From the NCBI GenBank assembly GCA_026545225.1, contig CM048850.1, positions 2,976,001 to 3,040,000 on the forward strand: a DNA stretch of 64,000 nt, written 5' to 3'. The notes beneath the pieces are model-generated. The model had not been told where the DNA came from. It did no database searches and worked only from the letters and a program-made list of their open reading frames with translations. Positions 12,972 to 63,400 of the stretch are shown piece by piece. Every line of letters begins with the position of its first letter. The stretch's first letter is position 1. The position numbers and the translations under genes are program-made. The DNA comes from Cornus controversa. Taxonomy: Eukaryota > Streptophyta > Magnoliopsida > Cornales > Cornaceae.

Positions 12972-14159
12972 TGTAGAGACCGTGATCAATTTTGGTCGGT
13001 TTACCGATTTTTCATCATTTTCGTGATAAATGCATTTTGAATGATGATATGGATGTTTCGAGAGTGGGAAACATGTTTGGAAGGTTAATTTGAGGTTTTT
13101 GAAATTTTTTGAAAGATTTGGAGAAGTTTGACTTTTTGGTCAAACTGGGGCCCAAGATGCAAGTTAAATGGGCCCGGAAATCCAAAAAATTCTTAGAAAT
13201 ATTTATTTTTGAGAATGGATTAGATGAAATGTTTAGAGATTAGAGGAAGTGATTTTGAGACCGTAGGAGTTTTCAGAATTGAAAACGAAGTCCGGAAAGG
13301 TGTGTTAAGTGGCCTGGGGGTATTTTGGTCTTTTCGTGACCTAGGGACCTTAAATGGTCAAACCTGCAGACATATATCATATCTCATGGCTGTTTCTCTC
13401 TCTATATTGCTCCCACTCCTTCTCTCTTCCTTCTCTCTAGGTTTTGGAGGTCTTTGGGTGTGATTCACATTCCGCCGAAGAAGGGAGATACGTAGGGGAC
13501 GGCTAGGGCTTCGGCTTGAACCGAACAAAGTCACGTTTCGGCAGGGTTTAAATTGCTAGAATTTTGGGAAGTGCTTGGAAGGCCTTCATTTTTGAGGTAG
13601 GTGTTCTTTTTCTCTTCTAATTGTCGATTCTAGGGTTTCGGGTGAAGAAGAGAGGTGTAGGTTGTGTTTCACATGCTTTAGGATGGTGAGAGGTGTAGAA
13701 AGTTATGTTTTCTCCTTCTCTAGAGTCCTATATTTTCACAATTATGTCCATTGTGTGGGTGGTAGCATGTGGGTTTGAAGTGTGTGAGTGTAAGAAATTG
13801 AAACATAGGCATTATGTGCTCAATTTGGTGTATATGTGAAAAATGTGTACCAAGTGTCATATATGTGATTAGATATGGTAATGTGGTTGTTGAATGCATG
13901 TTAGTTCTATGTACTAAAATTATGCATTGAGTGTAGCATGAGTAAAGTATGCTAATTTTTGAGTTGTATGCATATGAGATGATATATGCATGTGTTATAC
14001 ATATATGTTCTATATGTGGTGTGTGGTGATGGGAAACATGCTTTTTACTTCCTTTTAGTATCAATGAGCATGAGTAGAGCATGAAAATAAAATGCCATGT
14101 GTTTATGCATTCATATTGCATATGTGGGAAGTTGCGGGAAAATTACGCAAATGAGGTAC

Positions 14160-14480
14160 ACGAAACTTTGGAGTGGTCCAACCTTGTGGTAAAATGTGGT
14201 AAAATTATCCACTATGTATGGCCCTCAGAGTGGACCCGCCATCATAAGGCTTAATGCTTAGGATCAGAGTATGTCTAATACTAATGACCCCTCGGAGTTG
14301 TCCTGGTCATAGGATGGTTATCTGAGAATGTCCAAGAATTGTGAGCCTCAGAGTTGTCCCCTCACTCTATGGCAATCCTATATATTGCTATGGTAGAATG
14401 ACCTTTCAGAGTTGTCCCGGTCATTGGATGGTTATCGGAGATGTCCAAGGTTACATCATCCTCGGAGTGGGCCAATCATG
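14160..14480 (+). repeat. Tandem hairpin array, type 2, in LTR-C
   Basis: Repeated loops close to CCTCGGAGTTGTCC are enclosed by stems of different sequence: ATGGC/GCCAT (14218-14222, 14238-14242), ATGACC/GGTCAT (14284-14289, 14305-14310), GTGAG/CTCAC (14341-14345, 14361-14365) and AATGACC/GGTCATT (14397-14403, 14419-14425). Further weaker units are interspersed. The loop core CGGAGT is shared with type 1 units, suggesting common origin. Confidence 0.8.
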
Positions 14481-15197
14481 TAGGGTATCGAATAAGGACC
14501 GAGAGAGAGAGCATTTACTTTCCTTAATGCTTTTATGTTTGAACATGTTATACATGATTCGTGAAATATGCAATCCTCTTTAATTACATTTGTTAAATTA
14601 TTTGTGAGATTGTGGATGTGGCATGTAGTGTATTCATATGCATTCCATGTAGGTCAGTGTCGAGTCGGCACTTAGGAGGGTTGGGGTATCTATATTGAGC
14701 CGTAGTGGTGCTCACCCCTTTATTATAAACTGTTTTATAGATAAGGCGCCGATGACGGATGGGACTTGAGTGTCCAAGTGGAAACCTAGTAGCATTTTGC
14801 TAACTTTTGAGATATTGCACATTTTGTGGCTATCCATGCCGGCTTGTGGCATGTGACTTATTTTTGAGTTGTGATCATATCTTGGACAAATGTAGTTTGG
14901 ATGTATGTATTGGATTTTAAACTTGTTGGGTATGGAAAGATAACGGTTTAGTTTATGTAATGCCCATGGTGGCATTTTGTTCCTTTGATAATATTTTCAT
15001 GGTGAATGGATTGTGGTTGTGAAAGAGAATGACTCATTTTGATGAATGATTTAATCATGAATATGATTTTGAGTGTGTAATTGATGTTGGTAACTTTCAT
15101 TTATGTTATGGATCATATATGAGAGGTTCTAGGATGATAGAATGTTGATTGGGCTCCAAATGGATCATGTATAGGGTTGTTGGGACTCCTGGGAAGG

Positions 15198-15440
15198 GCA
15201 TTTCTATCGTGCGAAATGCCCATTTTGCACAATCGAAACCCCTATTTCGATTGTGCGAAGGGGTGATGAATTATGGTGATTTTTAGGGTCCAGACAGGGG
15301 CAATCTCGCACAATCGAAACCCCCATTTTGATCATGCGAGATATTGCAGGTCTGAGGTCCCGAGAGGGTGAAATTCTCGCACAATCGAGATGCCAATTTC
15401 GCATAATCAAGATTGGTATTTTGCACAATCGAGATTACTA
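15198..15440 (+). repeat. Palindrome cluster in LTR-C (CGCACAATCGA version)
   Basis: Same motif family as in LTR-B. The first copy has a longer stem, GGGCATTTC paired with GAAATGCCC, around the central TATCGTGC. The cluster is flanked on the right by ACTATTCACAG and the TTGAATTCTC box at about 15528. Confidence 0.75.
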
Positions 15441-15942
15441 TTCACAGTATTTTTTCCAAACTTTGTTTCGACGTAATTTCTTTGTTCTAGATCAAAATTG
15501 AGTGTGGTTTTTTTTTAAATTAAGTATTTTTGAATTCTCTATCCATTGGTGTAGGTTTCTACTTCATATTCCAAACATAGTAAATTTTGAGGCTTGAAAG
15601 TGAGTGATTCTTGAAAGTGTGGACAAGTAAATTTCCACTAAGGTGTATGATTCGATGTAGGGCCCATGAGGATTGGTTAAGGTAAATTTGTGTGCATTTA
15701 TATGCAAGAATTATGTTAAGCTTTAACGGTAAATGAGGGTAAAGAGGGTCCATTGGGACTAATGGACCAGTTAACCTCCGGTCTTCTGGGAGTTAGAAAA
15801 TCAGAGCGTTATAGCATGGTATCAGAATTTGATATATTGCATGAGTGTAGTTAAGATCATTTATGGGGTTGAGTGAACGGGTTCACACTCGGGATTCAGG
15901 GTCGGTCCGGGTTCCAGGGCGTGAGAGAGTGGTATTAGAGCT

Positions 15943-18632: not shown

Positions 18633-19252
18633 CGATCATGCGAGATATTGCAGGTCTGAGGTCCCGAGAGGGTGAAATTCTCGCACAATCGAGATTTTTT
18701 TCGCACAATCGAGATGCCAGTTTCGCACAATCGAGATTGGCATTTCGCACAATCGAGATTACTATTCACAGTATTTTTTCCAAACTTTGTTTCAACGTAA
18801 TTTCTTCGTTCTAGATCAGAATTGAGTGTGCTTTTTTTTTAAAATTGAGTATTTTTGGATTCTCTATCCAATGGTGTAGGTCTCTGCTTCATATTCCAAA
18901 TACAATAAGTTTTGAGGCTTGAAAGTGTGGACAAGTAAATTTTCACTAAGGTGTATGATTCGATGTAGGGCCTATGGGGATTGGTTAAGGTAAATTTTTG
19001 TGCATTTATATGCAAGAATTGAGTTAAGTTTCCGCGGTAAATGAGGGTAAAGAGGGTCCATTGGGACTAATGGACCAGTTAACCTCCGGTCTTTCGGGAG
19101 TTGGGAAATCGGAGCGTTATAGCATGGTATCAGAATTTTATATATCATATGAGTGTAGTTAAGATCATTTATGGGGTTGAGTGAACTGGTTCACACTCGG
19201 GATTCGGGGTCGGTCCGGGGCTGTCCTGGCGGTCCGGGTTCCGGGGCGTGAC
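18633..19252 (+). mobile_element. LTR 3' fragment embedded in I3
   Basis: This matches the last 600 bp or so of LTR-B/C: palindrome cluster, TTGAGTATTTTTGGATTC box, U5 stem, and end GGGGCGTGACA. At its left edge the interior sequence ATTTCGA runs straight into the LTR at an identical ATTTCGA, consistent with a microhomology join. At its right edge the interior resumes at AGAAGGATGAG, already seen at 17694. Confidence 0.75.
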
Positions 19253-21854: not shown

Positions 21855-22155
21855 ATTGCCTAGAGTAGGTCAATACTCGGTGAGGGAGTTGGAGTGGTTA
21901 CGTCACCTTGGAATAGGTAAATACTCGATGATGGTGGTTTACTCACCTTGGAGTAGGTAAATACTCGGTAGAGATTCTAAAAAGGTTACCCAATCGCCTT
22001 GGAGTAGGTAAATACTCGATGATTGTGGTTTGCTCACCTTGGAGTAAGTAAATACTCGGTGAGGTTCAAAGGAAAGGGGCCAAGTCACCTTGGAGTAGGT
22101 AAATACTTGGTGATGGTGGTCTATCCACCTTGGAGTAGGTAAATACTCGGTGGCG
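21855..22155 (+). repeat. Tandem hairpin array, type 1, in LTR-D
   Basis: Seven GAGTA/TACTC hairpins with CACC/GGTG arms, nearly the same as in LTR-B, at the same spacing. Confidence 0.85.
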
Positions 22156-28487: not shown

Positions 28488-28750
28488 ATCTCGATTGATC
28501 GAGATGTACATCTCGATCAATCGAGATTCTGACTTCGATCAATCGAGATCAAGTCTCGATCAATCGAAATCCTTGCTTCGATCAATCGAAATATCGATTG
28601 ATCAAGGACCTATCGAAGTAAACCACCTCTTGGGACTTTGATCTTTGCAAAAGGCTCCAACATCTCTGCATTATTTCGATCGATCAAGACCAAGATCTCG
28701 ATCAATCAAAATCTCGATTGATCGAGATCTTTGCTTCGATCAATCGAAAT
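28488..28750 (-). repeat. Palindrome cluster, CTCGATCAATCGAG version, inside the Athila-like element
   Basis: About ten copies of a motif close to CTCGATCAATCGAGAT in both orientations, spaced roughly 20 bp with a gap around 28610-28670. The same motif occurs in both LTRs of this element (24452-24518 and 33100-33158) but not in the surrounding non-coding LTR families, which have their own palindromes. Confidence 0.8.
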
Positions 28751-30286: not shown

Positions 30287-31696
30287 TTAAGCTTCTAACC
30301 TAGCCATAGATTGAACATTAGCTTCAAGCTTAGAGATTGATTGAGAGTGGGTTTGCAACAAGCGAGTATTGGCCTCAAGATTGCTTATCACTATTTCCTC
30401 AAAGCTTTGACTTCTCGGAGGAGGTGGTGGTTGTTGGTAGTTGGATCTTTGATGGTAAGGTTGAGGATTTGGCCTATATTGAGGCTGTTGAGGTTGAGAA
30501 TTAAAGGAATTTTGCCCTTGAAAAGAGGGACTTGATTCTTGAGGTTTCCATGAAAAAGCCAGATGATTCTTGTAACCAAGATTGTAGGTATTTGAATATG
30601 GATCATTCATCTCTTTAGAGTACAAGGCATTCGCTTGCTCTTAAGCATAATCGGGAGATTGACCGGCAATAGGACAATCTCGCACATAATGTGAAGTGCT
30701 ATAGCAAAACGAACACCCTTCCTAATTTTGAACAGGTTGGCTTGGAGTAGGTAGCCCATTTTTCATGATTTGGTCCATTTTTCGGGTTAAGGCTTCTACT
30801 TGCATGGCAACCTCATCTACCCTTGAAATCTCATGCACTCTTCTACAAGGTTGGGTGGATTTCCCTTTTCTAGTGGAGGAGCGTTGAGCTGAATTATTGC
30901 TTAGGGTTTGAAAAAGTTTCCATGCATCATCGGGGCTTTTCAAAAGGTATCCACCTCCACAAGCAGAATCTATCATTTGCCTATGTTGCTCACTCACCCC
31001 ATTATAAAAACTTTGCACTAGCTGCCATTTTTGGACAGCATGATGCAGACAAGATTTAAGAAGATCTTTTAATCTCTCCCACGTCTCATGAAATTGTTCT
31101 TGATCAATTTGGGTGAATCCAGTGATTGCTCGTCGAATATCACTTGTCTTTCCCATTGGGAAGTATTTTTTTAAGAACTCAATTTGCATCTCCGCCCAAG
31201 AATGGATTGAGTTAGGTTCTAGGAAATTGAACCAACTTCTAGTTTTATCTTTTAGGGAGAATGGAAACATACGCAGCTTTAGATCATCCTTCGTAAAGTG
31301 TGGTACACGAATGGTGGAACACACAGAAAGGAAGTAATCTAAATGCCGGTATGGATCTTCATTTAGGAGACCATGGAAGCTATTAAGAAGATTGATGGTG
31401 GAGGACTTTATTTCGAATTGATTTGCCACTACATCGGGAAATTGAATACATGAAGGTACTTCAAATGTAGTTGGAAGGTAAAAGTCTATAAGCAACTCTC
31501 CTTGAGGAGGAGGAGGTGGAGGTTGTTGTTCATGATTAAAAGGAGGTAGTCCGGGAAGTTGTCTCTCATTTGGTTCCATGTTTTCAGTCCTAGGCAATAT
31601 AGGGTCCCTAGAGGTTCCTCTACGTTGTCTAAGTGTTCTTTCAAGTTCAATATTACACGGAAGCAAAGGCAGTGACAATGACCGTCTACCTAGCAT
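30287..31696 (-). pseudogene. gag region of the Athila-like element
   Basis: The longest open stretch (30722-31696, 324 codons) has the retrotransposon gag core: NEDPYRHLDYFLSVCSTIR, LKDKTRSWFNFLEP and SWAEMQIEFLKKYFP, with MFPFSL and QIDQEQFHETWERLKDLLK. This arrangement is usual for Athila/Tat gag. Downstream (30287-30625) is a Q/P-rich segment. The 5' LTR and primer site lie about 300 bp upstream. The region as a whole is broken. Confidence 0.85.
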
Positions 31697-33912: not shown

Positions 33913-34681
33913 CCCCAGCATTCCTACAACATGAATATTGCAATTGAAATAATAACTCAGTCCCTGAATGTCCGTCTCATATACATACATCAAGTGAATA
34001 AAATACAACTGGAATAAAATACCCAACATAAATATCTAATACATTTAATCCCAATGTAAAGAAAATCTATCCAACATCCTAGACATACATCAGATTTTAA
34101 GGAATCTAGACACTACCTCTGCAACCGGTGCTGTCAGTCCCCTAACTGACTCCACAATCAGCAATACCTGCAAAACCTGGGAGGGGTGAGCTCAAAGGCC
34201 CAACAAGGTATGTCAAACCATACTATCACCGCTGCAGCAGGTCGATCCTCACATATTCTTAAAAATATACATGCACTTAAATATATCACAATATTTAAGA
34301 CTGTGCTCCTCCTAGCATGCGTGAACCAACAACGTAAATGGCTAATCTAGCACATATGAACATACAAAATTCACTACACATGATTTATGAAAATCATTTA
34401 CAGCATGCTCACAAGCAATAAAAGTCCAACGTCAATATGTATAGAAAGCATATATGATTTAGAGCATTTACATAAATAATGTAAATTAAATACCACATCA
34501 CCTACTCAACAAGTAGCAAATCTCAAATGCAATGTACATGCATTTAAACAGTAAAACATGCTTAACAGATGACCACCTAAGCATAAGATGTAACTCTCCA
34601 TCTCTTAGCTTCACCCGATACCCCAAACATGATTTTGACCAACCATATGACTGAGGCACTTCCCACACTATTGCGGAATCC

Positions 34682-34990
34682 ATCACAAGTATTCTCTACT
34701 CTAAGGTGAATGAACCACTGCAGAATCCGCCACCGAGTATTCTCTACTCCGAGGTGATCGAATCGCTTTAAAATCTGTCACCGAGTATTCTATACTCCGA
34801 GGTGATTAGATCATTTTCGAATTCGACACCGAGTATTCTCTACTCCAAGGTGATCGAACCATCACCGAGTATTCTCTACTCTGAGGTGATTAGATAATTT
34901 TAGAATTTATCACCGAGTATTTTCTATTCCGAGGTGACCTAACCACTCTAACACCCTCACCGAGTATTGACCAACTCTAGGCAATTCGAC
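34682..34990 (-). repeat. Tandem hairpin array, type 1, in the 3951-bp solo LTR
   Basis: Seven units with GAGTA, loop TTCTC, TACTC, and CACC/GGTG arms. The flanking pairs vary between units (for example ATCACC/GGTGAT). In LTR-sense orientation this equals the arrays of LTR-A, B and D. Confidence 0.85.
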
Positions 34991-38814: not shown

Positions 38815-41324
38815 TGTAACACCTTGATCCCCTGACTCTCGGAAAACCAGAGGTTAACTCATCCATTAGTCCTAATGGACCATTTTTACCCTCTATAAGG
38901 TACCATGCTCTGATACCATTCAGTCACGTCCTAATTTTCGACTCCCGAAAACCAAGGATGAACCCGTCCATTAACTCCAATGAACCTTCTTTTTTCTCCT
39001 TAATTACCTCGGAAGCTTAAATCAAACCTTGCATATAGATATGCATCATTTAACCTTAATTAACCACCATTGGCCCCAAACCATGCCTCGGTTGTATAGC
39101 AAACTAGTTACGACCTACATATTTTCACACATGCGAACCTGTGTGACCATAAATTGAGGCTAAAAGATATCCCATTGGATAGAGGATTTAAAAATACTCA
39201 ATTTAAAAAAAATGGCGCTCAATTTTGATTTGGAACGAAGAAATTACACCCGTTTGAAGTTCGAATGTAGATGGAGCTGCCTAGGTTCCCTCGGTCGGCT
39301 GATGGGTAGTTTTGGTCGATTGAAAGAGGACTTTTAGTCGACTGAAACATCGTCCAGTTGACTGAAACCTGTTCCCAGCTATTCCAACTCTCGGGATCTC
39401 CCACTTTCGATCGACCGATGCAAAGGGCACTCGATCGAAAGTCCAAAAAATGCCTCAAAACCTGATTTTTCAAATCCAATGCACTACACCACCATACCAA
39501 ATCATGTTCAAACTTAAAATATGATCAAAACTACACAAAATCAATGAATTTGGGTCTCAAAGAATCAAAATCCATGAACCTCTCAAGTTTGCTTCAAAGC
39601 TACATTATCCTTGAAATCAAAACAACCATAATTGATCTATAGTGTTTATAGCATGGTAAGAATGCATAAATCTAATCTCCAACACTTATTCTCTCAATAT
39701 CATACATAAAAACTTAAGAATTCCATCATTTATTCCATTCCCACAAGGTGATACATAATGGGAGTCCAAACCACATCCTTCCATTCATATACCAAAAGTC
39801 ACATGTAACCAATATATAGTCATTACATATGAACTAAAACATACCAACATGCTTAAAACATAAATACAATGCTTCCCATCTAGTCCACATGCCACAAGCC
39901 GACATGGATAGCAACCATGAAATTGTTTAAACATAAAACTTCAAAATTTATCCAAATGACCATCATGCTACAATTAAGTTCCAAAATCTCCACAAGTGAC
40001 TATAAAGTTCCTTTCATCCGTCCTTAACACATAACCTGAAAAATGTTGGGGGGAGCGGGGTGAGCACCACAGCGGCTCAGTAGAGATACCCCAACCCCAC
40101 CTAAGTGTCAACTCGATGCCGACCTACATGAATACAAGTCATAGCATCCCTATTGACTACATGGCATATGTAGAGCATTTAGACATACATAGCATATTCA
40201 ACACGTGAGAAACATTATCAAATGAATGCTTTCAAGCAATGCATGCTTAACTCGACAACCTAGACCACACACACACAAGTGGTTTATGATTTGCCAAAAT
40301 TCCAACAAAAAAGACATGGGTGGGCATGCTCCGAAACCCCATGTCACATTTTCAAAGAAAAACCCTCTTTGGGGCGTTTTATCAAACACCATGTATGCAA
40401 CATGTTCATAGATGATGTCAACACCACAAGCATCACCAAATAATGAAATTTAGCATACATTTACAAGGCTTTACACTTTGGCATCAAATTTCATGCTCAA
40501 AAAAATACCAAATCATGCTTTTCACATAGCATTTACCATAAAGCTTCATACATGTCATACGTATATCAACTTTATAACACATAATACACATAAATCACCT
40601 TAACATGAGATCATATAACAAATGCAACAAGGAGAGAGAAACCCAACCTCCTAAATTTACCTAGCATGTTAACCCCCCAAGAAACCCACAATCCAACTTA
40701 TAGAATTGACACTTAGGGAGGAAGAGATACCCCTACCTCAAATCCAAGCTTAGTTGTTGAAGACCCAATTTCCACCAAGCTTCAAACTCCTTCAACGACA
40801 ACTTTCCACTGATCAAATTGAAGAGGAGAGTGAGGAGAGCAACTTTAATTATTGGCTCCACCCTCAAATCTCACTTCTAAGCCCTCAAAATTTAGAGAGA
40901 ATGAGAGAAAATAAACTTTGTATAGAGAGCAAGAGAGAGAAATGAACCCCAAAAATCTGATCTTTTTCTCTCTTTTCCCATATATATATATCTATATATA
41001 ATTTATATATTCCACTTTGCAACTAAACCCTCAATCTCTCCTTATTTGCTCATTGTTATGGTCACTTTGCATCTAATTACAAACCATCATTTCCTCTCTT
41101 TCCAAAACTTCACTTATGCCCTTAAACTTACATCCACACCCCTATGCCACTCTCAAGTGTTCGTAGTTACCTCCCGATTTACCAGAATCCATTCCGATCC
41201 CACACCCATAACTGAAAACATAAAAAGAATTATTTAAATTCACTAAACATGTCATTAAGTGACTAATCATGCTTAAAAGTCACTGACCCATAATTATAAT
41301 TCAAAAAAATTTTGGGTCGTCACA
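38815..41324 (-). mobile_element. Solo LTR (2510 bp), TSD CAACA/CAACG
   Basis: It begins TGTAACACC at 38815 and ends TCGTCACA at 41324. The flanks CAACA (38810-38814) and CAACG (41325-41329) differ at one base. The surrounding LTR reads through (GGTGCTGAGCATCT before, GATTCAGTAGAAATATCCC after). Inside are an internal primer-site copy with a TGACTG-type terminus (near 38910-38932), the TTGAGTATTTTTA box (39172-39202) and a distinct palindrome cluster of the TCGGTCGACTGAAA type (39275-39450). Fossil, non-coding. Confidence 0.75.
39275..39450. repeat. Palindrome cluster, GGTCGACTGAAA version
   Basis: Repeated words GGTCGATTGAAAG, AGTCGACTGAAAC, AGTTGACTGAAAC, TTTCGATCGACCGATG and CTCGATCGAAAG, mixing both orientations. 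It lies beside the same conserved box that flanks the CGCACAATCG cluster in LTR-B, so the palindrome differs while the frame is shared. Confidence 0.7.
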
Positions 41325-41559
41325 CAACGATTCAGTAGAAATATCCCAACCTACCTAGGTGTCGACCCGACACCGACCTACATGATATGCAACCATGATG
41401 CCGCTACACTACGTGACATGTAACAATGTTCTCACATTCCATACTTCACAAATGCAATTCAACAATATGCATTTAAACATACAACATGCTTAACAGTTAA
41501 AACATATAAGCATTCAAGATAATTACACCTTATTCAGTCATAATCCGATACATAGCCAT

Positions 41560-41830
41560 AATTGGTCCACTCTGACGATCATGTGGTGTTGGGCCACTCT
41601 GACAACACCAAAGTGTTGGTCAACTCCGACGACACTTGTGTGATGAGGCAACTCCGATGGTCACACAATCAAGGTCTCATATATGCCTTATGCTAGTGAT
41701 TGAGCAACTCCGACGATCATTATACTTGGGGTATGATTAGGCCTCTCCGACAATCATCCCATTGGGAGTATTCTCACCAATTCAACACTTGGTTGGCCAC
41801 CTCCGAATCCCATGTTCATCATACTTGGAC
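41560..41830 (-). repeat. Tandem hairpin array, type 2, with covarying stems
   Basis: Five clear units: TGGTGTT/AACACCA (41584-41590, 41604-41610), AAGTGT/ACACTT (41611-41616, 41632-41637), TGTGTGA/TCACACA (41637-41643, 41661-41667), TAGTGAT/ATCATTA (41694-41700, 41716-41722, one G-T pair) and ATGATT/AATCAT (41733-41738, 41752-41757). Loops stay close to GGCCAACTCCGAC while the stems share little sequence. Weaker units flank these at both ends. Confidence 0.85.
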
Positions 41831-43239
41831 AACACTCCAAAAATTACGTATACATGCTCACAAAACACATATACAATACAAGTATATAATTTTCATGCTC
41901 TTCAATGCACATTCTTGCTACATTAGTTCTAGCATGCATTAATCTACACAATCCCCATATAATCACATATATGCTACAATCCATGCACATAAATCACATA
42001 TGCATATAATTCATTTCATAGCAAAACATGCTCTTTTTCAATATACATTTAAAGTATAAACACATAATTCATCACATATAATAAATTGAGTAACTCTAGC
42101 ATGTTTAATTATACAATGTGAATAGAGGAAAGAAAATAATTCAACTCCCACCACTCACCCATACATGCTAACACAAGTAATACAACACCAACTCCTCCCA
42201 TACCCCAGAATCAACAACTAAGAGGGAAAAAACACCCCAACCTCAAGTTTGGAAGCCTTCCAAGTAATCTCCAAAAATCACCAAACTCCAAGTTTATCCA
42301 AATTGCGATTTATTTATGTGGAACCGTAGACTGGGACAAGGAGAATACACTTTCCTTCTTGGTCAAAGCCCAAATCCAAACTTCACTCACCTTTAATTTT
42401 TAGAACTCTCCAAATTGGGACTTTGAAGCTACTAACGTGAAGAGGAGAAACTCTCTCTTGGAGCAAACCCTAACTCTTACTCTAAGGTGTCCAAAAGCAA
42501 GGAAGAAGGTTGGAGAAGAAGAAGAGCTTGGAGATAATCAATGGATGATTTCCTATATATCTATAGTATGTCTCAGCCATATACATATATTGTATTGACA
42601 CCTCACCAAGGGCAAATAACCATTTTGCCCTTAAATCACTTAACGTACCTTTCGAGCTCCATTTTTTATTCCGAAAGCTCCTACAGCCTCAAAATCACTT
42701 CCTTAACTCATTAAATATTTCATCTAATCTAAAATCAAAATCAATTATTTTCTAGAAAATTTTGGATTCCGGGGCCCACCCGGACAGCGTCCTAGGGCCC
42801 AGTATACCAAAAAAGTCAAATTTCTTGAAAACTTCTCAAACCCCTTATACAACTTCCTAAACATGTTTATCAAGATTAAAATATGTTAAACATCATTAAA
42901 AATGCATTTATGACAATTATGATGAAAAGAATGCAAACCAGCCAAAATTGGTTCTGGTCCCTACATTGTCTTTATTTCAAGTCAACCCTACTACACTGGC
43001 TGAACATGACCTCCACTCTTCCCTTTAAAGATGACTGATAATGATTCTTGCATAGCTTGCCAAAAATTTGGCTGGTACCCATCGGTCAGCCACATACCCA
43101 AAGTTATCATTGCATAGTTATGTTCGGCCGAGATCAAATTATTATGCAATGTCATGTTGGATGATCGAGCTACTTACAGAATGAATTTGTTCCAATAGAC
43201 TTGAATTTCTTCATCAATTGACCAATGAAGTTCGATCCT

Positions 43240-43731: not shown

Positions 43732-44957
43732 TGTAACGCCCCGATTCCCCGACTCCCGGGAAACCGGAGGTTAACCTGTCCATTAATCCCAATGGACCCT
43801 TTTCAACCTCTATAAGGTACCATGCTCTGATACCATCCTGTCACGCCCCGATTCCCGAGGCCCGGAAACCGAGGTGTGAACCTCGTGAGATCACCCTCAC
43901 GCTTTAACCACCACCTGATCATGCAACCTCAATTTCCTATCATTTTTACGAAAATTGGGCATGACCCATTCTAAATAATCAGCTCCTGGCATGATACACC
44001 TGTTTCACAATTTATATGGACACTTCTGGGCACGTGTCCCCCCAGCATTTATATCTAAACAATAAAAATGGACACTTCTGGGCCCGTGTCCCCCCAATAT
44101 TTCTACAACATGCATAATACAATCATAAATACATGTCTCAGTCCTTGAATGTCCGTATTAAATACATACATCACATGAATAAAATACAACTGAAGGAACT
44201 GAATCTATACAAACGCTTTATACATTTAATCCAAATGTAAAGCATCTACCTATCCACTATCCTGGACATACATTAGATTCTAAAGAATCTACTTACTACC
44301 TCTGCAACCGGTGCTGTCAGTCCCCTAACTAACTCCGCACTCAGCAATACCTGCAAAACCTGGGAGGGGGTGAGCTCAAAGGCTCAACAAGGTATGTAGA
44401 ACCATTCTATCACCGCTGCAGCAGGTCGATCCTCACATATTCTCAAAAATATACATGCACTTAAATATATCACAACATTTAAGACCATGCTCTACCTAGC
44501 ATGCATGAACCAATGATGTACATGGTTACTCTAGCACATATGAACGTACAAAATCTACAACACATGATTTTAGAAATCATTCTCAACATGCTTGAAAGCA
44601 GTAAACATTAGGCATCAATATGTATATAGAACATATATATCAACACATTTACATAAACGACGTAAATCAACTATCACATCTCCTACTCATCAAGTAGCAC
44701 ATCTCAAATGCAATAAAGATGCATTTAAACCATATAACGTACTCAAAAGCAATAGACATCCAACATATATCGTGTTCTGTCACAAACAACGTATATATAT
44801 ATATAAGAAAGCGTTTAACACATAGCATGCTTCACAATCGATAATGCAAGCAAGTTCACACACTTGTCTCACTCTCTCTCTCGGGTCCCACCCGACACCC
44901 TAACATGATTCTTAACCAACCATGTGACCGAGACACTTCTCACACAATTGCGGAATC

Positions 44958-45272
44958 TATCACCGAGTATTCTCTACTCCGAGGTGAATGAACCGCTACA
45001 GAATCCGCCACCGAGTATTCTCTACTCCGAGGTGACCGGACTGTTTCAAAATCTATCACCGAGTATTCTCTACTCCGAGGTGATTAGATCATTTTCGAAT
45101 TCGTCACCGAGTATTCTCTACTCCGAGGTGATCGAACCATCACCGAGTATGCTCTACTCCGAGGTGATTAGATACATTTTAGAATTTTGGCACCGAGTAT
45201 TCTCTACTCCAAGGTGACTCAACCACTCCAACGCCCTCACCGAGTATTGACCTACTCTAGGCAATTCAACCA
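44958..45272 (-). repeat. Tandem hairpin array, type 1, in the young 3' LTR
   Basis: Seven units, each GAGTA-TTCTC-TACTC with CACC and GGTG arms; the first stem is 44965-44969 with 44975-44979. The last unit, like the LTR-proximal one in every other type 1 array, has a different loop (TTGACC). The same array lies at 51392-51706 in the other LTR. Confidence 0.85.
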
Positions 45273-46772
45273 CTCTTCCCCATCTCCTCACAACGGGCCC
45301 ATATATGCATTTCAAACATATAATGATCAAGCATCTAAGAGTCATGCTAAACAATGCATAATTAAGTTATGAAAACACTAAGCATGCATTTCACCTCCAC
45401 AAAGCCACATATATATTCACCTATACATGTAAAATCTAGCATACAGTTCACATATGCTCATAAACCTCACTTAGGCACATTTTTGTCATGCTTCACCCAT
45501 GCATATATTTTCTATATACAGATAGCATGCATTTCCTTCACGTAAACCCACATGTAATCACGTACACATCAAATCATGCATATAAATCACATATGCACAC
45601 ATACTAGCATAAGTATTATCATGCTTCACTCAATGCATGTATTTACTACAAGTAATTACATACATTCCACTCACAATATATATAAACACAGATATATTAC
45701 GTCACCCACATATGTGATAAGAACATATAGAACACCTAGCATATCATAGTCATGCTTTGCAAATGCCCGCTAAAAGCTACATTCATACTTAGCATGCATT
45801 TCTACCACTGCAACCATATATATATTCACATATATATAAATAACATCATGCATAAGAATCACATATGCATACAAGACAACACGTAGCTAAACAGATATTA
45901 TTAGCATACTTTTTATAGACTTTAATCTATACATACATGCATATCACAATGCAAACAGGCGATAAATCTAACATGTTACCACTTCCCAAACCCGCACATA
46001 CATATGTATACACACACACATATGTATATCCTCTCACATTCCATGTATGCACAACATTCCCTATACACATATATATATAAGCGCCTACATATATATGTAT
46101 ATACACATACCACATATGATTAAATTGAAACATATGTAAATTACTCGACATACATAAAATATCTGTATGAGATAGAGGCAAGAATCAACTTGCCTTAGGT
46201 CCAGCTTTCGCCAAGTCCGCGCTTGCAAAGCGGTCCATGCCAAGCCCGGTCCAGTCCGGTCCCGTGCTAAAGTCCATGCAATCCATCCACCAAACCATTT
46301 TTCTCTTTGACCAACCAACCACGACCCAGCAACCTATCTCAGCCGAGCCAAACACTAGTCAAACGTCACCAAACACCATCGAAGCTGACCACCAAAACAG
46401 GCCGTCCAATAGCCATGAGAATGCCACCATTTGCCACCTCAAGTCACTATTATCTGAACCAAATGGAACCCACAAAATAGCCGCTACCAAACCCAATAGC
46501 GAGCACCCCAAACAGTCCACAAATCAGCCCAGAAAAATGGTGATTAACGGTGCACCAAACAACCCCTAACCGTGCCACCCTCCACGGCTGAACCACCCGC
46601 CAACACCACCTGTTTTGGCCACCCTCAACTACCAAACACCAAAACCAGTCGCAACCCACCATCAAGGTTGGAACAACCCTCTCCCAAGGCCACAAAATCG
46701 AACACTACCAGCTGAGAAACCTGTCATAGCCACAGTTGAGAAGACCCAATGCCGAGCACCCACACAGCTCAT

Positions 46773-46852
46773 TCTTTCGGTCGACCGAAGAATGGTTTCG
46801 GTCGGCCGAAATGACACATTCGGTCGACTGACCAAATCCACCAGTCGTCCGA
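46773..46852. repeat. Palindrome cluster, TTTCGGTCGACCGAAA version
   Basis: CATTCTT..AAGAATG arms around TCGGTCGACCG (46773-46797), then TTTCGGTCGGCCGAAA (46798-46813), then CATTCGGTCGACTG and CAGTCGTCCGAAA. It is duplicated at 53207-53286 in the other LTR. The related 3951-bp solo LTR lacks it at the corresponding place, so it is gained or lost within the family. Confidence 0.8.
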
Positions 46853-47684
46853 AACTGCGATGCCAGAACCACCACCTCCCAGACCTCTGTCTCTCTCTCT
46901 CTAGCTGCGAATCGCTGCTCGTCGCCGCCAGAGCATCACCGCCTACAAGCCAAACCGAGAGGACCCAACAGTCCCCTTTTTGGTTGTCTTCTCCGACCAA
47001 GCCACAGCCGGACAACCCCCTGTCGCCATGAACTTCCATGGCTCCCATCCTCAAGCTCAACCCAATATAACCGAGGAGCACCAGCTGCAACCGAGAAGTC
47101 CTCTAACCGACCCCAGCATCCAAGCTCCAAGGAAACCCACCATGGACCTCCCTCAGTCACCGACAGCCACCAGCCGTGGGCTTCTCTCTCTCTCTCTTAC
47201 CGTCTCGGCTTTCTCTCTCTTTCCCTCTCTACTTTCTCTCTCCAGTTTTCCCTTTCTTCTCTCCTCTTTTCTTTCTTCTTTTTCTCCTTCAGCCGAGACC
47301 ACCATCTCACTTATCTTTTCTTCACTCTTTATACACCACATATTCCTACTACTAATCTCCTCCACATATATATATACATTATTTATATATATATACATAA
47401 TATCACAAAATACATGTATTCACATGTATTTTCCCACACTTACCACTATATATATATATTTATCTCCATATATATATATACACACACACCCTTGCTATGT
47501 AAGAAAGTATATACATATATATTCCCATATATATATATAATCATCTATACCCCCCATCAACATATATATACTTCCATATATATATACATGTATATCCACC
47601 TTTTCCCGAAGTTAATTAATTCGAAAAAAAATTAATCCGGTCCAAAATCGCCCGGAACCGGTCAAAAATATTCCGGTCCTTACA

Positions 47685-50165
47685 ACCTCCCCTCCTTCAA
47701 GGAATTTCGTCCTCGAAATTTACGTAGTCATGGTCTTTCCAAAACTAACCCATACATGACGTTATTCTCGCCAATAATCGTCACCATTTCTTTCCACAAA
47801 CCCTAGGCGCTACACTTGCAACACCTAACTCATACCTCTCAAGTTTTACACAATCAGTGCGTCTCAACTGCTTCCTAGAGTCCACAGTCTCTACCTCAAG
47901 ACCTATTCAGTCCATCTCTATTTCTAGCCTAAGGCAACACCTTTGACTAATCATTCCAATCACTCACAGTGATACGTCCCCTATAATCCGGGATTTATCA
48001 ACACTCAAAGTCATTCTTTTATTATCAAACATGACTTTCAATCTCTGGCATATCATTCCTGGGCTTAGTCCAATATCCTGGGCATCATCACAACACAATC
48101 CACATCAATCCAGTGCACATCACAAGCGCACTCACCAGCAAGGCACATGACAATGTACTCGCCGATAAAAACAACACAACCAGCGTACTTGCCGCAGCAA
48201 GCCGCATAATCCTGCCCAGTCTCAAAGACTACAACCCACTGGAATCCAATGCCAAGTCCAGGATCTCGCATCCCACTGATTTCACAATCTCATTACTCAA
48301 GAGGAGAAACATTTACCCTTTTTCATCCTTCACATCATGGAGCCAGTTGACAATTAGAGAGAATTCCTTTCATATTAGCACTTCACTTTAGACAACCCTT
48401 ACCAATGAAAGTTTGAGGTCACCTACAGTAGCCAAACAGCAGCCATACAGTGGCCGTAGCCCACTGCGTCTACACGTCCACTGCGTCCACCTCTCCCCTT
48501 CACGGCAAGAAATTATCCTCACTTCAGATACCATATGTCAGGATCCTCACCCACTATCAACCCATCCTTCTCTTAGCATCATATCCACACTATGATCCAA
48601 CTGCATCAATCATGCGCATATCACAGCACACCACTGAGGTCAAGGCACATAAGGAGTGCACTTGTCAAAACAAATCATCCAATCCTGCCCATTTTTTGGT
48701 GGACTACATTCCATTGGCATTTAGTGCCAAGATTAGGGTTTTACATGCCCTTAACTTCACAAATCTCATTTCCTAAGGAATGAATCCAATTTACTTACTC
48801 GTCCATTAATCCTAACGGACGTTTCCAGCTTCCCGGGTATTTATCCATTCCTTTCCAGCATCTCCTTTGAGACTCCAAGATCCTGACTGCTTCGTCTAGG
48901 ACCCTACAATTCCAGACTTACTTTCAAAGCCTATCACTACATGTCTATTTCAACATCACCGTCCACTCGGTTTCAAACCTCTACCCAGGTTTACCAATCC
49001 TCAAAACCAGAGCTTCTAGGTGACTACATGTCACTACTAGCCATGCAACGCAAAATGAAACACTAAAGTGCAATGCTCAATTACATGAATCACATATACC
49101 ACATAGCATCTAACACACAACATGATAACCAAATAATCACATGCCATGCATGATATGACATATGATGCATAAATCAAACCCCTAGCCCTCGGGCTAATAC
49201 TAGGAAAATACCCTTGACCATACACGGTCCTGGTACCTCCTCTGCCTGAGCAAGCGTGTAAAACACGGCCCAGTCCCCCTAGTACACACACATACTAGAA
49301 CACAGCATCTAGAGTGGTTCAAACCAACCTACTCCCATCCTCTGTACCCATTGGTAAACACCTACCAATCTGTCCGCTTCTATAGTCTAAGGTAGCAACC
49401 TTGACTATCAATTCCAATCACTTTCAGTGACATATCCCTACTATTGGGAATTCTTTATCTGTCGTCATCCAGACGAAACAACTCAACATCCACAAGAGCC
49501 GGCGTATTGTAAGAGAAGTGCTAATCCAAGAAAAATGTCTGGCCAGGCCACTTTTCCCAGTTAGCCCAACTCCGGCAATATGCCTTCCTTGTATCCCATC
49601 TCAATTCCAACTGCCAACCTCGGCAATACACTTACCAACAACACATCATAAGTCCCTAAGTATTTCTAAGGACTTAAACACTCGCAAACTTCCTTGCGGT
49701 ATCTCTTCATTGCTCACTAATGAGACTTAATCACCAAATCCAAAGGTCTAAACTCAACCAATTCTGGGAGTTATTACCAATCAAAATCTGTTTCACACAC
49801 CAACACTTTGATCTTTCATTAGGATTGCTCAAACCGAGTAAATCATCCCACTATCATTCATAGGTAATTCAAACCTATCATCTAGACAACTATCATCCAT
49901 TGCCGATCTCCAAACCAACACGTGATTTGACCATCCGTCCTTAGGTATTCGAACCAATGACTTTGATACCCTAGGTTTTCAAACCTATTGCCTTAACAGC
50001 AATCTAGAGTTCCTCAACCCTCACCAGTTGCCCCTAGGTATTCCAACCTAGTGCTCTCGTAGCATTCTGGCATTAGGTACATAATCCAACCTTCTCAACC
50101 ATACACATGATACGTCCATCACCCGTCGTCCCTAGGTATTCCAACCTAGAGCTCTGATACCATGC
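47685..50165 (-). mobile_element. Non-coding interior of the young element
   Basis: The minus strand begins with the primer site (50151-50162), then CTAGGT/ACCTAG hairpins (50132-50137 with 50144-50149, and more to the left). It continues with sequence homologous to I1-I3 of the plus-strand array, and ends in a purine tract (about 47686-47705). No protein domain is seen on either strand. It shows what an intact interior of this family looks like. Confidence 0.8.
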
Positions 50166-53100
50166 TGTAACGCCCCGATTCCCCGACTCCCGGGAAACCG
50201 GAGGTTAACCTGTCCATTAATCCCAATGGACCCTTTTCAACCTCTATAAGGTACCATGCTCTGATACCATCCTGTCACGCCCCGATTCCCGAGGCCCGGA
50301 AACCGAGGTGTGAACCTCGTGAGATCACCCTCACGCTTTAACCACCACCTGATCATGCAACCTCAATTTCCTATCATTTTTACGAAAATTGGGCATGACC
50401 CATTCTAAATAATCAGCTCCTGGCATGATACACCTGTTTCACAATTTATATGGACACTTCTGGGCACGTGTCCCCCCAGCATTTATATCTAAACAATAAA
50501 AATGGACACTTCTGGGCCCGTGTCCCCCCAATATTTCTACAACATGCATAATACAATCATAAATACATGTCTCAGTCCTTGAATGTCCGTATTAAATACA
50601 TACATCACATGAATAAAATACAACTGAAGGAACTGAATCTATACAAACGCTTTATACATTTAATCCAAATGTAAAGCATCTACCTATCCACTATCCTGGA
50701 CATACATTAGATTCTAAAGAATCTACTTACTACCTCTGCAACCGGTGCTGTCAGTCCCCTAACTAACTCCGCACTCAGCAATACCTGCAAAACCTGGGAG
50801 GGGGTGAGCTCAAAGGCTCAACAAGGTATGTAGAACCATTCTATCACCGCTGCAGCAGGTCGATCCTCACATATTCTCAAAAATATACATGCACTTAAAT
50901 ATATCACAACATTTAAGACCATGCTCTACCTAGCATGCATGAACCAATGATGTACATGGTTACTCTAGCACATATGAACGTACAAAATCTACAACACATG
51001 ATTTTAGAAATCATTCTCAACATGCTTGAAAGCAGTAAACATTAGGCATCAATATGTATATAGAACATATATATCAACACATTTACATAAACGACGTAAA
51101 TCAACTATCACATCTCCTACTCATCAAGTAGCACATCTCAAATGCAATAAAGATGCATTTAAACCATATAACGTACTCAAAAGCAATAGACATCCAACAT
51201 ATATCGTGTTCTGTCACAAACAACGTATATATATATATAAGAAAGCGTTTAACACATAGCATGCTTCACAATCGATAATGCAAGCAAGTTCACACACTTG
51301 TCTCACTCTCTCTCTCGGGTCCCACCCGACACCCTAACATGATTCTTAACCAACCATGTGACCGAGACACTTCTCACACAATTGCGGAATCTATCACCGA
51401 GTATTCTCTACTCCGAGGTGAATGAACCGCTACAGAATCCGCCACCGAGTATTCTCTACTCCGAGGTGACCGGACTGTTTCAAAATCTATCACCGAGTAT
51501 TCTCTACTCCGAGGTGATTAGATCATTTTCGAATTCGTCACCGAGTATTCTCTACTCCGAGGTGATCGAACCATCACCGAGTATGCTCTACTCCGAGGTG
51601 ATTAGATACATTTTAGAATTTTGGCACCGAGTATTCTCTACTCCAAGGTGACTCAACCACTCCAACGCCCTCACCGAGTATTGACCTACTCTAGGCAATT
51701 CAACCACTCTTCCCCATCTCCTCACAACGGGCCCATATATGCATTTCAAACATATAATGATCAAGCATCTAAGAGTCATGCTAAACAATGCATAATTAAG
51801 TTATGAAAACACTAAGCATGCATTTCACCTCCACAAAGCCACATATATATTCACCTATACATGTAAAATCTAGCATACAGTTCACATATGCTCATAAACC
51901 TCACTTAGGCACATTTTTGTCATGCTTCACCCATGCATATATTTTCTATATACAGATAGCATGCATTTCCTTCACGTAAACCCACATGTAATCACGTACA
52001 CATCAAATCATGCATATAAATCACATATGCACACATACTAGCATAAGTATTATCATGCTTCACTCAATGCATGTATTTACTACAAGTAATTACATACATT
52101 CCACTCACAATATATATAAACACAGATATATTACGTCACCCACATATGTGATAAGAACATATAGAACACCTAGCATATCATAGTCATGCTTTGCAAATGC
52201 CCGCTAAAAGCTACATTCATACTTAGCATGCATTTCTACCACTGCAACCATATATATATTCACATATATATAAATAACATCATGCATAAGAATCACATAT
52301 GCATACAAGACAACACGTAGCTAAACAGATATTATTAGCATACTTTTTATAGACTTTAATCTATACATACATGCATATCACAATGCAAACAGGCGATAAA
52401 TCTAACATGTTACCACTTCCCAAACCCGCACATACATATGTATACACACACACATATGTATATCCTCTCACATTCCATGTATGCACAACATTCCCTATAC
52501 ACATATATATATAAGCGCCTACATATATATGTATATACACATACCACATATGATTAAATTGAAACATATGTAAATTACTCGACATACATAAAATATCTGT
52601 ATGAGATAGAGGCAAGAATCAACTTGCCTTAGGTCCAGCTTTCGCCAAGTCCGCGCTTGCAAAGCGGTCCATGCCAAGCCCGGTCCAGTCCGGTCCCGTG
52701 CTAAAGTCCATGCAATCCATCCACCAAACCATTTTTCTCTTTGACCAACCAACCACGACCCAGCAACCTATCTCAGCCGAGCCAAACACTAGTCAAACGT
52801 CACCAAACACCATCGAAGCTGACCACCAAAACAGGCCGTCCAATAGCCATGAGAATGCCACCATTTGCCACCTCAAGTCACTATTATCTGAACCAAATGG
52901 AACCCACAAAATAGCCGCTACCAAACCCAATAGCGAGCACCCCAAACAGTCCACAAATCAGCCCAGAAAAATGGTGATTAACGGTGCACCAAACAACCCC
53001 TAACCGTGCCACCCTCCACGGCTGAACCACCCGCCAACACCACCTGTTTTGGCCACCCTCAACTACCAAACACCAAAACCAGTCGCAACCCACCATCAAG

Positions 53101-54118
53101 GTTGGAACAACCCTCTCCCAAGGCCACAAAATCGAACACTACCAGCTGAGAAACCTGTCATAGCCACAGTTGAGAAGACCCAATGCCGAGCACCCACACA
53201 GCTCATTCTTTCGGTCGACCGAAGAATGGTTTCGGTCGGCCGAAATGACACATTCGGTCGACTGACCAAATCCACCAGTCGTCCGAAACTGCGATGCCAG
53301 AACCACCACCTCCCAGACCTCTGTCTCTCTCTCTCTAGCTGCGAATCGCTGCTCGTCGCCGCCAGAGCATCACCGCCTACAAGCCAAACCGAGAGGACCC
53401 AACAGTCCCCTTTTTGGTTGTCTTCTCCGACCAAGCCACAGCCGGACAACCCCCTGTCGCCATGAACTTCCATGGCTCCCATCCTCAAGCTCAACCCAAT
53501 ATAACCGAGGAGCACCAGCTGCAACCGAGAAGTCCTCTAACCGACCCCAGCATCCAAGCTCCAAGGAAACCCACCATGGACCTCCCTCAGTCACCGACAG
53601 CCACCAGCCGTGGGCTTCTCTCTCTCTCTCTTACCGTCTCGGCTTTCTCTCTCTTTCCCTCTCTACTTTCTCTCTCCAGTTTTCCCTTTCTTCTCTCCTC
53701 TTTTCTTTCTTCTTTTTCTCCTTCAGCCGAGACCACCATCTCACTTATCTTTTCTTCACTCTTTATACACCACATATTCCTACTACTAATCTCCTCCACA
53801 TATATATATACATTATTTATATATATATACATAATATCACAAAATACATGTATTCACATGTATTTTCCCACACTTACCACTATATATATATATTTATCTC
53901 CATATATATATATACACACACACCCTTGCTATGTAAGAAAGTATATACATATATATTCCCATATATATATATAATCATCTATACCCCCCATCAACATATA
54001 TATACTTCCATATATATATACATGTATATCCACCTTTTCCCGAAGTTAATTAATTCGAAAAAAAATTAATCCGGTCCAAAATCGCCCGGAACCGGTCAAA
54101 AATATTCCGGTCCTTACA
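50166..54118 (-). repeat. 5' LTR of the young element (3953 bp)
   Basis: Copy of 43732-47684 at a constant offset of 6434 bases. Internal primer-site copy at 50258-50269; hairpin array at 51392-51706; TCGGTCGACCGA palindromes at 53207-53286. It directly adjoins the working primer site at 50151-50162. Confidence 0.9.
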
Positions 54119-60494: not shown

Positions 60495-63400
60495 TTATGG
60501 ATCCCGAGGGCCATCAAATGACTGGATTTTCCTCAAATTCCAGTGGAGGCCGTCATGGATGCTGCGCAAGAAGTCACTGGTGGAATCAACTTGACATGCA
60601 GTTGGCACAGGCCAAGGGGCCATGCTGCAAACAAGCGCATCCCCAGGTGCCAACTGTATTCTGTCCTTTCCATCAAAAGACACCCATGCATGGCCTCTGC
60701 TATTGAAAGGTACTTGCACTCTAAGTGTTACATGCTCAGGTAATATCAGAGGCCGGAAGGATAAGGAATGTGGGCAGATTGGTGTAAACAGGATGGCAGG
60801 AACCTGCAATTTGATGAAATTATTAGAATATGACAAATCCATATTTTTGCTCAAAAGAATCAAGAAAAACTCGTGTAGATGAGTTCTACGTGCATTGATG
60901 AAGCAATACAAATTAATCTTGTAATGAATCTGCAGTATCTGGTTGCTAATCAAAGAAAATATGGGTGCCATAGCTTCAGTTTTAAAAATAAATGACGTCC
61001 AATTCCCACTAGAATGAATTCAAGGGCATCTTTTACACTACTTTCATAAGACTAGATTGAAATTAAAAAAACAACTAATCAAACAAACAATCGAAAACCT
61101 AAATAGTGTTGGGGCCAGCGGAAGCACATCACAAGCAAACATGGAGATCCCATCATGAAACAAACAAACATCACAAAGAAAACACAATATTTACGTGGTT
61201 CGGCCAAACTCAACCTACGTCTACAGGAAAAAGAAATTCTACTATCATTAAGTAGAAATTATAGAAACAAACACTCAACACTCACCCACTGCCTCATGAA
61301 AAATCACACCGGTAGAGACTTTGAACATCGTCGTCGTCATCATCATCATCTCTACCCCCATACACTCACCGATTTCTATGAGGCTACATCTCTCTTCTAC
61401 CAAACCACTCTCTTCTTTTCTCACTCACTTCTCCATTCTCTTTTCTTCTAATTAGGTATTCAAAAATGTATACCTAATTAAACATGGAATACGAGTCACA
61501 ATTCCTAACAAATAGTATCTTTTCAATTGAAAAATATACCCTTTTGACAATCCTTTACTGAAAAATAAGTACACAGGAAAAAAAACAAAATACAGAAAAA
61601 CAAAACTAGAAGATGAATATACACGGTTATCCTTTCTCATTTCATTCAGTCTGAAGTCAAGATCCTTTGTCAAAAGAATCATAGGCCACTGTCTCTCTTC
61701 TCACAAACCTTGACATATATTCAATTTTTATATTCCAATTGTGCTTGTAACTTGAATTTCAATCATTTTGTTGTATTCATGTATTGTCAAAGTTGAACCA
61801 TATCAATCCATACTAGACGAGATTGGTTGTTGTTGCACATGACAATATCATTTCAGCCATAGATCTCCTTGTTGCAAACTTCCAACTTCTCAAAATCGTG
61901 GTCATTTTTAAATTTGTAGACTTTTATCCATCTCAAGATCCTCACTTTAACTACAATTCTTATTGACATTTTTCTTATTTGCATGTCATTTTTCAAATCA
62001 GAGACGTTACCATAAAAGCGAAGAAAAAAAATGCCATCTTGAGAATATGTGCTCCAAAGTCCATCAATCAATGATTCCCCAAAATACCCAAATTTTAGAC
62101 CCTAAGGCCCACTAAGTAAATCAAAGCAACCATGATCAAAACCAAGGGTCCACTATACTCTCACACTTAAGAGTACACTTGCTAGAACACCTGATAAGGA
62201 GAAATTTCTATGACGACTTTAGTAATTTCTAGAACTCATCCCTCAATCCGTTCATTATGTCCTACATACCAACATGTACAAGTGCTTCTATTTATAAAAA
62301 CCGAGACAAGTTTATCAATAAATAGACACTCACATGTTACACCATTGCAGATCTAGCGACCAATTCTATCACATGGTGCGAAACCACTATTTATGAATAT
62401 GCAACATCTTGATTTATATCTCCCGTGCCTTACCCACTCATTGCGAGAAGCACATAAATCAGACTATAGAATCAATGGTACCTATGACTCAACTCTAGAG
62501 TCAACCAATACAATATATTCAGCCTATTCATATATGTAAAGGATGTAAATAATAAACCAGATTCTATTCACTTGTCAAATTCAATCAATTTGGCTTGAAG
62601 GACACATATAATACCAACACTTTTATACCTTAAATCTATTTGATTATCAGTCCTTTGGACTCTCTTTTTGCAAGATTTATACTCCACATTAGTTTTCCTT
62701 TTGTTTTTCCTTTCTTTGAGTTAAATTTGGTGGGTTTAAGTTGAATATGTGTTTTAAAGATCTACAAACGGTAGAAAATTACTTGAAATCAGAATTAAAA
62801 AATGGTCTGTGTTAGGTTCACATGCTGACCACCGGCTGTTAACTGCTGCAGGACATACTGGTTGCTACATAGCAATAGCGCGGGCCAAAAGGGGCACATG
62901 TGAAACGGACTCCCAGTAACTTCTGGCCATGACCAATTTCTAAAATCCCCATCATCATTACATAAAGCACATAACAGTGATGGCCGAATTTTGAAACATT
63001 AACTGAACCCCAACTACTTGGGTCCTCTATAAACCACACAGGTCTCACAAATACAATCAAATAAGTACTTAATCTGAGGGAAACTAAAAAATAAAGAACA
63101 GAACTACATATTATTATTAATTAGCTCCCCTTTTAAGATAAACCAACGTTCACATCTTTTTATTTTTATATTCAATTTACAAACATAATATGTGCACTCC
63201 TCCTGTATATAGAGATTAAACATATTCTCTCCATTATTGGGCTAACTGTATCCGTAACAGAATTAATTTGATAAGCACACAAATACCTTAATAGTATATT
63301 CTATAGGGACATACCTGCGGATGGACCATCGATCCTCCAGCCGCGAGGGAATATGCAGTACTTCCAGATGTTGTTGATAAGATCAAACCATCGCCTTGCA

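Follow-up and report, generated by a model that had tools for sequence, protein, structure and literature searches.

Hairpin rows with an oriented, near-constant loop and covarying stems in LTR retrotransposons of Cornus controversa: a putative cis-acting domain

The closest described systems are the packaging signals of HIV-1 and MMTV, where the HIV-1 leader and the MMTV ssPurines present GGAG in the non-coding RNA of an LTR element, as the arrays described below would. In MMTV, GGAG is needed for both Gag binding and packaging (PMC8096270), and in HIV-1 the first NC sites include a labile [UUUU]:[GGAG] helix, so that weak pairing around GGAG is functional there (PMC7395439), as far as the accessible portions of the two reports go. 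Conserved complementary stretches in LTRs are likewise described in the accessible text of PMC3601003, which ties stem-loops to long retroviral R regions, was unable to model Ty3-type LTRs of plants and, unlike the present work, describes no tandem constant-loop arrays in that portion. For plant LTR retrotransposons, gene-less ones included, RNA recognition by Gag is poorly known, and the accessible part of a 2025 review names no sequence signal for packaging in plants (PMC12786077). Our literature search of open-licence papers returned no description of hairpin arrays of the kind reported here. These arrays differ from the HIV-1 and MMTV signals in forming rows of near-identical loops on replaceable stems, in lying both in the LTR and mid-element, and in belonging to another element group, and they are known here from sequence alone.

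The window analysed is a stretch of 64,000 nucleotides of contig CM048850.1 in which a sequence-only reading had noted five adjacent inverted repeats with differing stems around a near-constant loop. The hairpin array is real and broader than first described: all five inverted repeats sit where they had been placed, the loop is indeed near-constant and best read as 15 nt, from one base before GG to two after CGA, and the row extends by two more units (41557-41583, decayed, and 41787-41815) and one motif-less hairpin. The array lies in a type A LTR copy whose 3' part is missing: the copy stops at about 41322, against another LTR. Its homology to locus L009 spans 41322 to 42965, and many other copies start at 41319-41332. 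Both the LTR start on the minus strand and the order of LTR end and primer-binding site in relatives such as L010 and L020, where ...GTGACA is followed by TGGTATCAGAGC, establish minus as the sense strand of the element, and the transcribed loop reads UCGGAGU. The features of this copy are as follows.

41322 to 42965, minus strand: truncated, decayed type A LTR copy carrying the array, delimited by homology to L009 and by LTR-start and primer-binding-site search
42965, minus strand: LTR start TGTAGGGACCAGAACC of the type A copy
41557 to 41583, minus strand: unit F, decayed, with CATAAT/ATCATG against CATGAT/ATCATG in most other A copies
41584 to 41610, minus strand: hairpin unit, stem TGGTGT/ACACCA
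41611 to 41637, minus strand: hairpin unit, stem AAGTGT/ACACTT
41636 to 41668, minus strand: hairpin unit, stem TTGTGTGA/TCACACAA, enclosing the inverted repeat first noted, at 41637-41667
41694 to 41722, minus strand: hairpin unit, stem TAGTGAT/ATCATTA (ATCACTA in many other copies)
41733 to 41757, minus strand: unit K, stem ATGAT/ATCAT, part of an orthologous group across families
41761 to 41781, minus strand: hairpin without the ACTCCGA motif, ATTGG/CCAAT enclosing GAGTATTCTCA
41787 to 41815, minus strand: last unit, first in sense, with a 17-nt loop and one change from the ACATGG/CCATGT of many A copies

The mismatch in the TAGTGAT/ATCATTA stem is decay of the window copy. Taken by itself, this copy carries a modest excess of hairpins: counting perfect stems of at least 6 bp with loops of 8-26 nt, we found 4 non-overlapping ones against a mean of 1.16 in dinucleotide shuffles, and 13 of 1000 shuffles reached 4. 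That last figure is what could be said for inverted repeats that arose in a row by chance and were passed on by duplication without constraint, a reading contradicted by the retention of pairing while sequence changes between families (fixed-geometry, tree-null and unit K tests, below) and in our judgment very improbable. It is the relatives, through the fixed-geometry and covariation tests, that make the case decisive.

Related arrays in this genome fall into types A (the array above), B, B', C, D and E. Their common build is a stem of 5-8 bp around an oriented loop, mostly of 15 nt, KGGNCNACTCCGANN (sense UCGGAGU; sense consensus 5'-NNUCGGAGUNGNCCK-3'), from which type D differs in its inner stem and its lack of a 15-nt loop (TCACC-UCG-GAGUA-loop-UACUC-GGTGA units). 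A DNA search of the 771.7-Mb genome with the window array gave 40 scored places among 989 first-look candidates, and the 40 listed arrays were aligned; the other A copies are 83-91% identical to the window copy, with CpG columns the most diverged. Further queries were taken from L019 (B), window 14158-14482 (B'), L020 (C), L015 (E) and window 44954-45260 and others (D), and each query yielded about 1000-2100 first-look candidates, partly overlapping, in this one genome. The window holds seven arrays of types B' and D.

14158 to 14482, plus strand: type B' array, located in a different LTR, with stems TACATGAT/ATGATGTA (one mismatch), AATGACC/GGTCATT, GTGAG/CTCAC, ATGACC/GGTCAT and ATGGC/GCCAT
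51388 to 51700, minus strand: type D array of a young element, in the LTR that is 5' in sense
44954 to 45260, minus strand: second type D array of the young element 43732-54118, in its other LTR
34670 to 34980, minus strand: type D array in a related LTR
3427 to 3690, plus strand: type D array in an LTR of plus sense, at a position matching that of the B' array in the LTR 12972-14855
8687 to 8950, plus strand: type D array
21894 to 22152, plus strand: type D array

The distance from LTR start to array is about 1.0-1.25 kb in types A and B' as well as the D copies at 2197 and 7455, and about 2.4 kb in the longer LTR of the young D element; one D and one B' array occupy the equivalent place in homologous LTRs (2197-3256 corresponding to 12972-14031, and 3840-4078 to 14613-14855). 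Type C arrays instead lie inside elements, about 1.75-2.1 kb downstream of the primer-binding site in L020 and L027. Among the 40 C arrays listed, 10 are accompanied on their own strand by an A or E array no more than 9 kb away (3 of them on both sides), and none by one on the opposite strand at such a distance, the A and E listings comprising the best 40 or so places each. Within arrays oriented by their query, the loop motif lies on one strand in 551 of 551 units and on the other in none. By eye, motif-less hairpins alternate with the units in B and C arrays (L047-L066 and L067-L086): GGCAA..TTGCC, AGGC..GCCT, AGTGG..CCACT and CTGCT..AGCAG, the last replaced by CTACT..AGTAG in L080.

The carriers are probably Ty3-type LTR retrotransposons, to judge from LTRs with a target-site duplication, from primer-binding sites and from the gag-protease of a relative, read in L026 alone. 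The young element at 43732-54118 (minus strand) has LTRs at 43732-47684 and 50166-54118 that are bounded by TG..CA and 99.975% identical over 3957 aligned bases, with CCTAA on both sides as the target-site duplication; its 3.95-kb LTRs enclose about 2.5 kb without an ORF of at least 130 aa, and its type D array has copies identical over 341 bases at eight other places. Type A copies have the LTR ends TGTAG and TGACA, and the primer-binding site, with 0-2 mismatches, follows ...GTGACA or GTTACA by about three bases in the window, L010, L020, L027 and others. In L027 the A element lacks any ORF of at least 170 aa, and both it and the young D element resemble LARDs, the long-LTR, gene-less plant elements, for which the literature, as far as search listings represent it, names no hairpin arrays. 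In L026, a B-type array (7804-7991), a primer site carrying two mismatches (6208) and a 717-codon open frame (1454-3604, minus strand) with gag, zinc-knuckle and RVP_2 protease domains follow one another on one strand; a piece of A-type LTR lies between primer site and gag, and our search found no LTR start. From this order and strand we infer a link between the B-type array and an autonomous element, whose Gag has a zinc knuckle, as in retroviral GGAG packaging systems. The original description of the setting as an LTR without protein genes was accordingly too narrow, given the C arrays inside elements and this B-type array upstream of an open gag-protease frame.

Several further features of the carriers and their surroundings were recorded. 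The LTR end with its primer-binding site occurs twice, about 100-150 bp apart, at 43732-43839, 38815-38926 and 5268-5500 in the window and at 2307 and 2455 of the L027 contig, so that a second site resembling the primer-binding site lies inside the LTR, with three such sites near 5284-5488. Many A copies have a splice-donor-like CTTGAG|GTAGGG (about 42247 in the window, minus strand) between promoter region and array, with GGTGAGT further upstream, and the D LTR at 2197 (plus strand) has TCGAG|GTAGGG; with donor-like sequences upstream, the arrays could lie in a leader intron. L025 has an open frame of 644 codons (1417-3348, minus strand). Elsewhere in the window, both on the minus strand, are an ORF with a Retrotrans_gag domain (30725-31696) and one with an ATP-NAD kinase C-terminal domain that is possibly part of a host gene (60498-61016), and 21-22-bp tandem repeats of related words (ATCGAGAT and the like) lie at 9907-9958, 15377-15442, 18681-18760 and 28513-28589.

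In the fixed-geometry test, units were picked solely by the loop motif GG.[CT].[AC]CTC[CT][GA]A from the window and L009-L066, the 15-nt geometry having been read beforehand from about a dozen units that are also present in the 309-unit test set. At a loop of 15 nt, the first six pairs are 76% Watson-Crick, against 15-32% at 9-14 and 16-21 nt, and 156 of 309 units have all of their first five pairs perfect, where other loop lengths give 0-3. Chance inverted repeats are ruled out by this test. The stems involved differ widely, among them ATGACC/GGTCAT, CATGAT/ATCATG, TGTGAG/CTCACA, TATGGC/GCCATA, TGGTGT/ACACCA, AAGTGT/ACACTC and AGTGAT/ATCACT. Pairing also persists among 54 representatives at least 6 differences apart, in which the first six pairs form in 46-63% of cases against 24-29% at slid positions, and five perfect pairs occur in 11 of the 54 against 0-3; some of the other divergent representatives are decayed or have loops of 16-19 nt. 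A MAFFT alignment of these 54 units placed gaps in the stems and was left out of the counts.

Covariation was then scored over 267 distinct units (362 occurrences, from the window and L009-L086). The seven inner stem pairs take ranks 4, 1, 9, 6, 3, 5 and 10 of 378 column pairs, and the eighth takes rank 52. The summed stem score of 613 was reached by none of 400 null alignments (mean 8, maximum 294), and slid partners scored between -180 and 10. It is important to note that the null was a custom one, in which alignments evolved column by column on the same FastTree of the 31-nt units, itself a rough tree. In an earlier, smaller run the five best stem pairs had E values of about 0.03 to 1.1 and two more of 2.9 and 5.4; single pairs being marginal there, the covariation claim is carried by the joint test.

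A more direct comparison is possible at unit K, which was matched between families by its array neighbours and not by the tree. Its inner two pairs are A-T and T-A in types A and C, G-C and C-G in B and B', and A-T and C-G in E; the first is formed in 96-100% of rows per family, and the second ranges from 65% in E to 97% in A, with rows kept in A (39 of 40), B (21 of 21), B' (17 of 17), C (23 of 23) and E (31 of 34). Over 59 of these 112 K units, distinct ones with up to 12 per family (A, B, B', C and E), 89.8% of cells are paired and 57 are double-changed, against 22.8 in shuffles (0 of 500); the covariation score is 0.298, where shuffling gives 0.159 and sliding no more than 0.162. Pair 7-25 reads A-U in 36 units and G-C in 23 and is broken in none. 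The number of pairs with double changes and the number of pair types in the K units do not rise above shuffles (389 and 473 of 500). Two pairs of unit J repeat the pattern, with T-A in E and C-G in B and B' (rows kept: B 20 of 21, B' 17 of 17, E 14 of 34; in E, 13 and 8 of the 14 usable rows pair), and, by eye, many A and C copies have ACATGG/CCATGT in the sense-first unit where many B and some E copies have ACACGG/CCGTGT. At unit G the type E rows were out of register and were excluded. Compensatory changes have thus been fixed between families at orthologous unit K. The core of the sequence-only reading, that stems vary while pairing persists, is upheld by the geometry, tree-null and unit K tests, both from unit to unit and where orthologous units of separate families are compared; breaks as frequent as kept pairs, or a lack of covariation, would have come to light in these tests, and neither did.

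Low divergence of the stems accompanies this. In five of five alignments, divergence outside CpG columns is lowest in the stem columns (counting units in which the majority bases pair), with stem, loop and rest at 0.050, 0.081 and 0.112 in type A and 0.068, 0.103 and 0.117 in type E. The samples aligned comprised 40 of 40 listed places for A (38 in A1), the query and 20 of the 39 other places listed for B, 16 of 40 other rows plus the window for B', 23 of 40 for C and 34 of 42 rows for E; D was represented by the six window arrays only.

At which level the pairing is kept, and on which strand, is less uniform. One A array folded as sense RNA is no more stable than its shuffles (z 0.32; antisense -1.45), one B array over its whole length gives z of about 1 on both strands (sense 0.96), and the young D array folds stably (z -3.48). 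With pairing confined to 40 nt (12 A, 8 B, 8 C and 2 D arrays), mean z for sense and antisense is -0.88 and -2.47 in A, -1.74 and -2.18 in B, -1.47 and -1.86 in C, and -3.31 and -3.82 in D, the antisense strand being the more stable in all four types. RNAalifold with pairing up to 45 nt recovers, on sense and antisense respectively, 35 and 37 of 39 designated pairs in B, 18 and 13 of 25 in B', 7 and 10 of 20 in C, 6 and 0 of 19 in E, and 0 and 10 of 36 in A, where the 38 copies as sense RNA give other, weak pairs instead. The labile GGAG helix of HIV-1 (PMC7395439, in its accessible part) implies that such weak pairing need not speak against function. Wobble states in units K, J and F show no sense-strand preference (55 G-T versus 43 A-C cells, read on the antisense strand); antisense G-T states become pairs more frequently than A-C on the inner branches of the tree (11.5 versus 2.5), the terminal branches reverse this (4 versus 7), and the wobble test thus gives no consistent answer as to strand. 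Of the selected RNA or cruciform structure proposed at the outset, the kept pairing is confirmed, while a preference for the sense RNA is not, as the wobble counts and the sense folding of A arrays indicate.

The chief rival to selection on structure is mutational. Template switching by a polymerase or reverse transcriptase could copy one arm onto the other, so that arms would match without function, and PMC8604942, in its accessible text, indeed reports that such switching homogenises the arms of short inverted repeats and that non-coding stretches with them can be more conserved than their surroundings. The absence of a clear strand preference in the wobble states agrees with this account, as do the extra inverted repeats held by the LTR flanks: relative to shuffles, inverted repeats stand at 2.92 in A arrays, 3.45 in B, 2.38 in D and only 1.72 in C, and at 1.85 in the LTR flanks of A. 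What it leaves unexplained is the loop motif, its 15-nt length and its orientation across array types and two places in the element. The switching repeats in the same portion of PMC8604942 have spacers shorter than the 15 nt found here; the absence of inverted loops in 551 units also speaks against switching, weakly, since spacer inversion was seen there only with arms longer than 9 bp. On balance we consider template-switch homogenisation unlikely, and yet the rival to be taken most seriously.

The strand results also bear on whether the arrays act as DNA, tuning transcription or chromatin as cruciforms or repeated binding sites within the LTR. Enhancer function is common among tandem repeats of LTRs, local folding of the antisense strand equals or exceeds that of the sense strand, and the 6-bp arms have centres about 21 bp, or two helical turns, apart, which would place both arms on one side of the helix. 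A sequence-specific dimer, however, would not allow arm sequences to differ as freely as they do, and arms of 6 bp with loops of 15 nt make poor cruciforms. Like units moreover recur mid-element on the same strand, and this second array inside elements fits recognition of RNA and does not fit a pure promoter role. We regard action as DNA as improbable.

For an array with a fixed loop length, covarying stems, a near-constant oriented loop, two locations in the element and low stem divergence, all of them observed here, the reading we favor, tentatively and at somewhat less than even confidence, is that of a reiterated cis-acting hairpin domain of Ty3-type elements, acting in genomic RNA and perhaps serving as packaging sites read by Gag. 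The loop would be the recognized part, with the stem merely presenting it, and its reader would most likely be the zinc-knuckle part of a Gag common to autonomous and gene-less members, which would make the arrays multivalent packaging sites for Gag in the element's genomic RNA. The choice of Gag is suggested by analogy with the GGAG contacts in MMTV and HIV-1. A signal for export or translation with a host protein as its reader would have the same appearance, and the anatomy and covariation evidence would fit it equally well. Hairpin signals read by such a protein for nuclear export or translation also have a precedent, in that mouse IAP and musD use cis RNA export elements (PMC12786077, accessible text), and the donor-like sequences upstream of the array would suit them. 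No candidate protein has emerged, and Rfam gave no match at gathering threshold in the window and none up to E 0.1 in six loci. Known export elements, furthermore, number few per element and are not known to form rows of near-identical loops. Hence a host reader strikes us as a rather unlikely alternative to Gag.

The arrays would thus belong with the cis-acting hairpin signals of LTR elements, with a putative function. Carried further, the Gag-read packaging model would make them an undescribed RNA domain, consisting of modular rows of UCGGAGU-loop hairpins common to autonomous elements and their gene-less parasites, sometimes repeated mid-element, and docking the helper's Gag; this we put forward as a possibility, though a doubtful one. 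The stems would then be interchangeable spacers whose sequence drifts fast, while the code of loop, length, orientation and number stays. For plant LTR retrotransposons, the arrays represent a concrete candidate packaging signal that is testable with short RNAs and Gag protein, and they indicate that strongly covarying structure can occur in LTR sequence that resembles fast-drifting junk.
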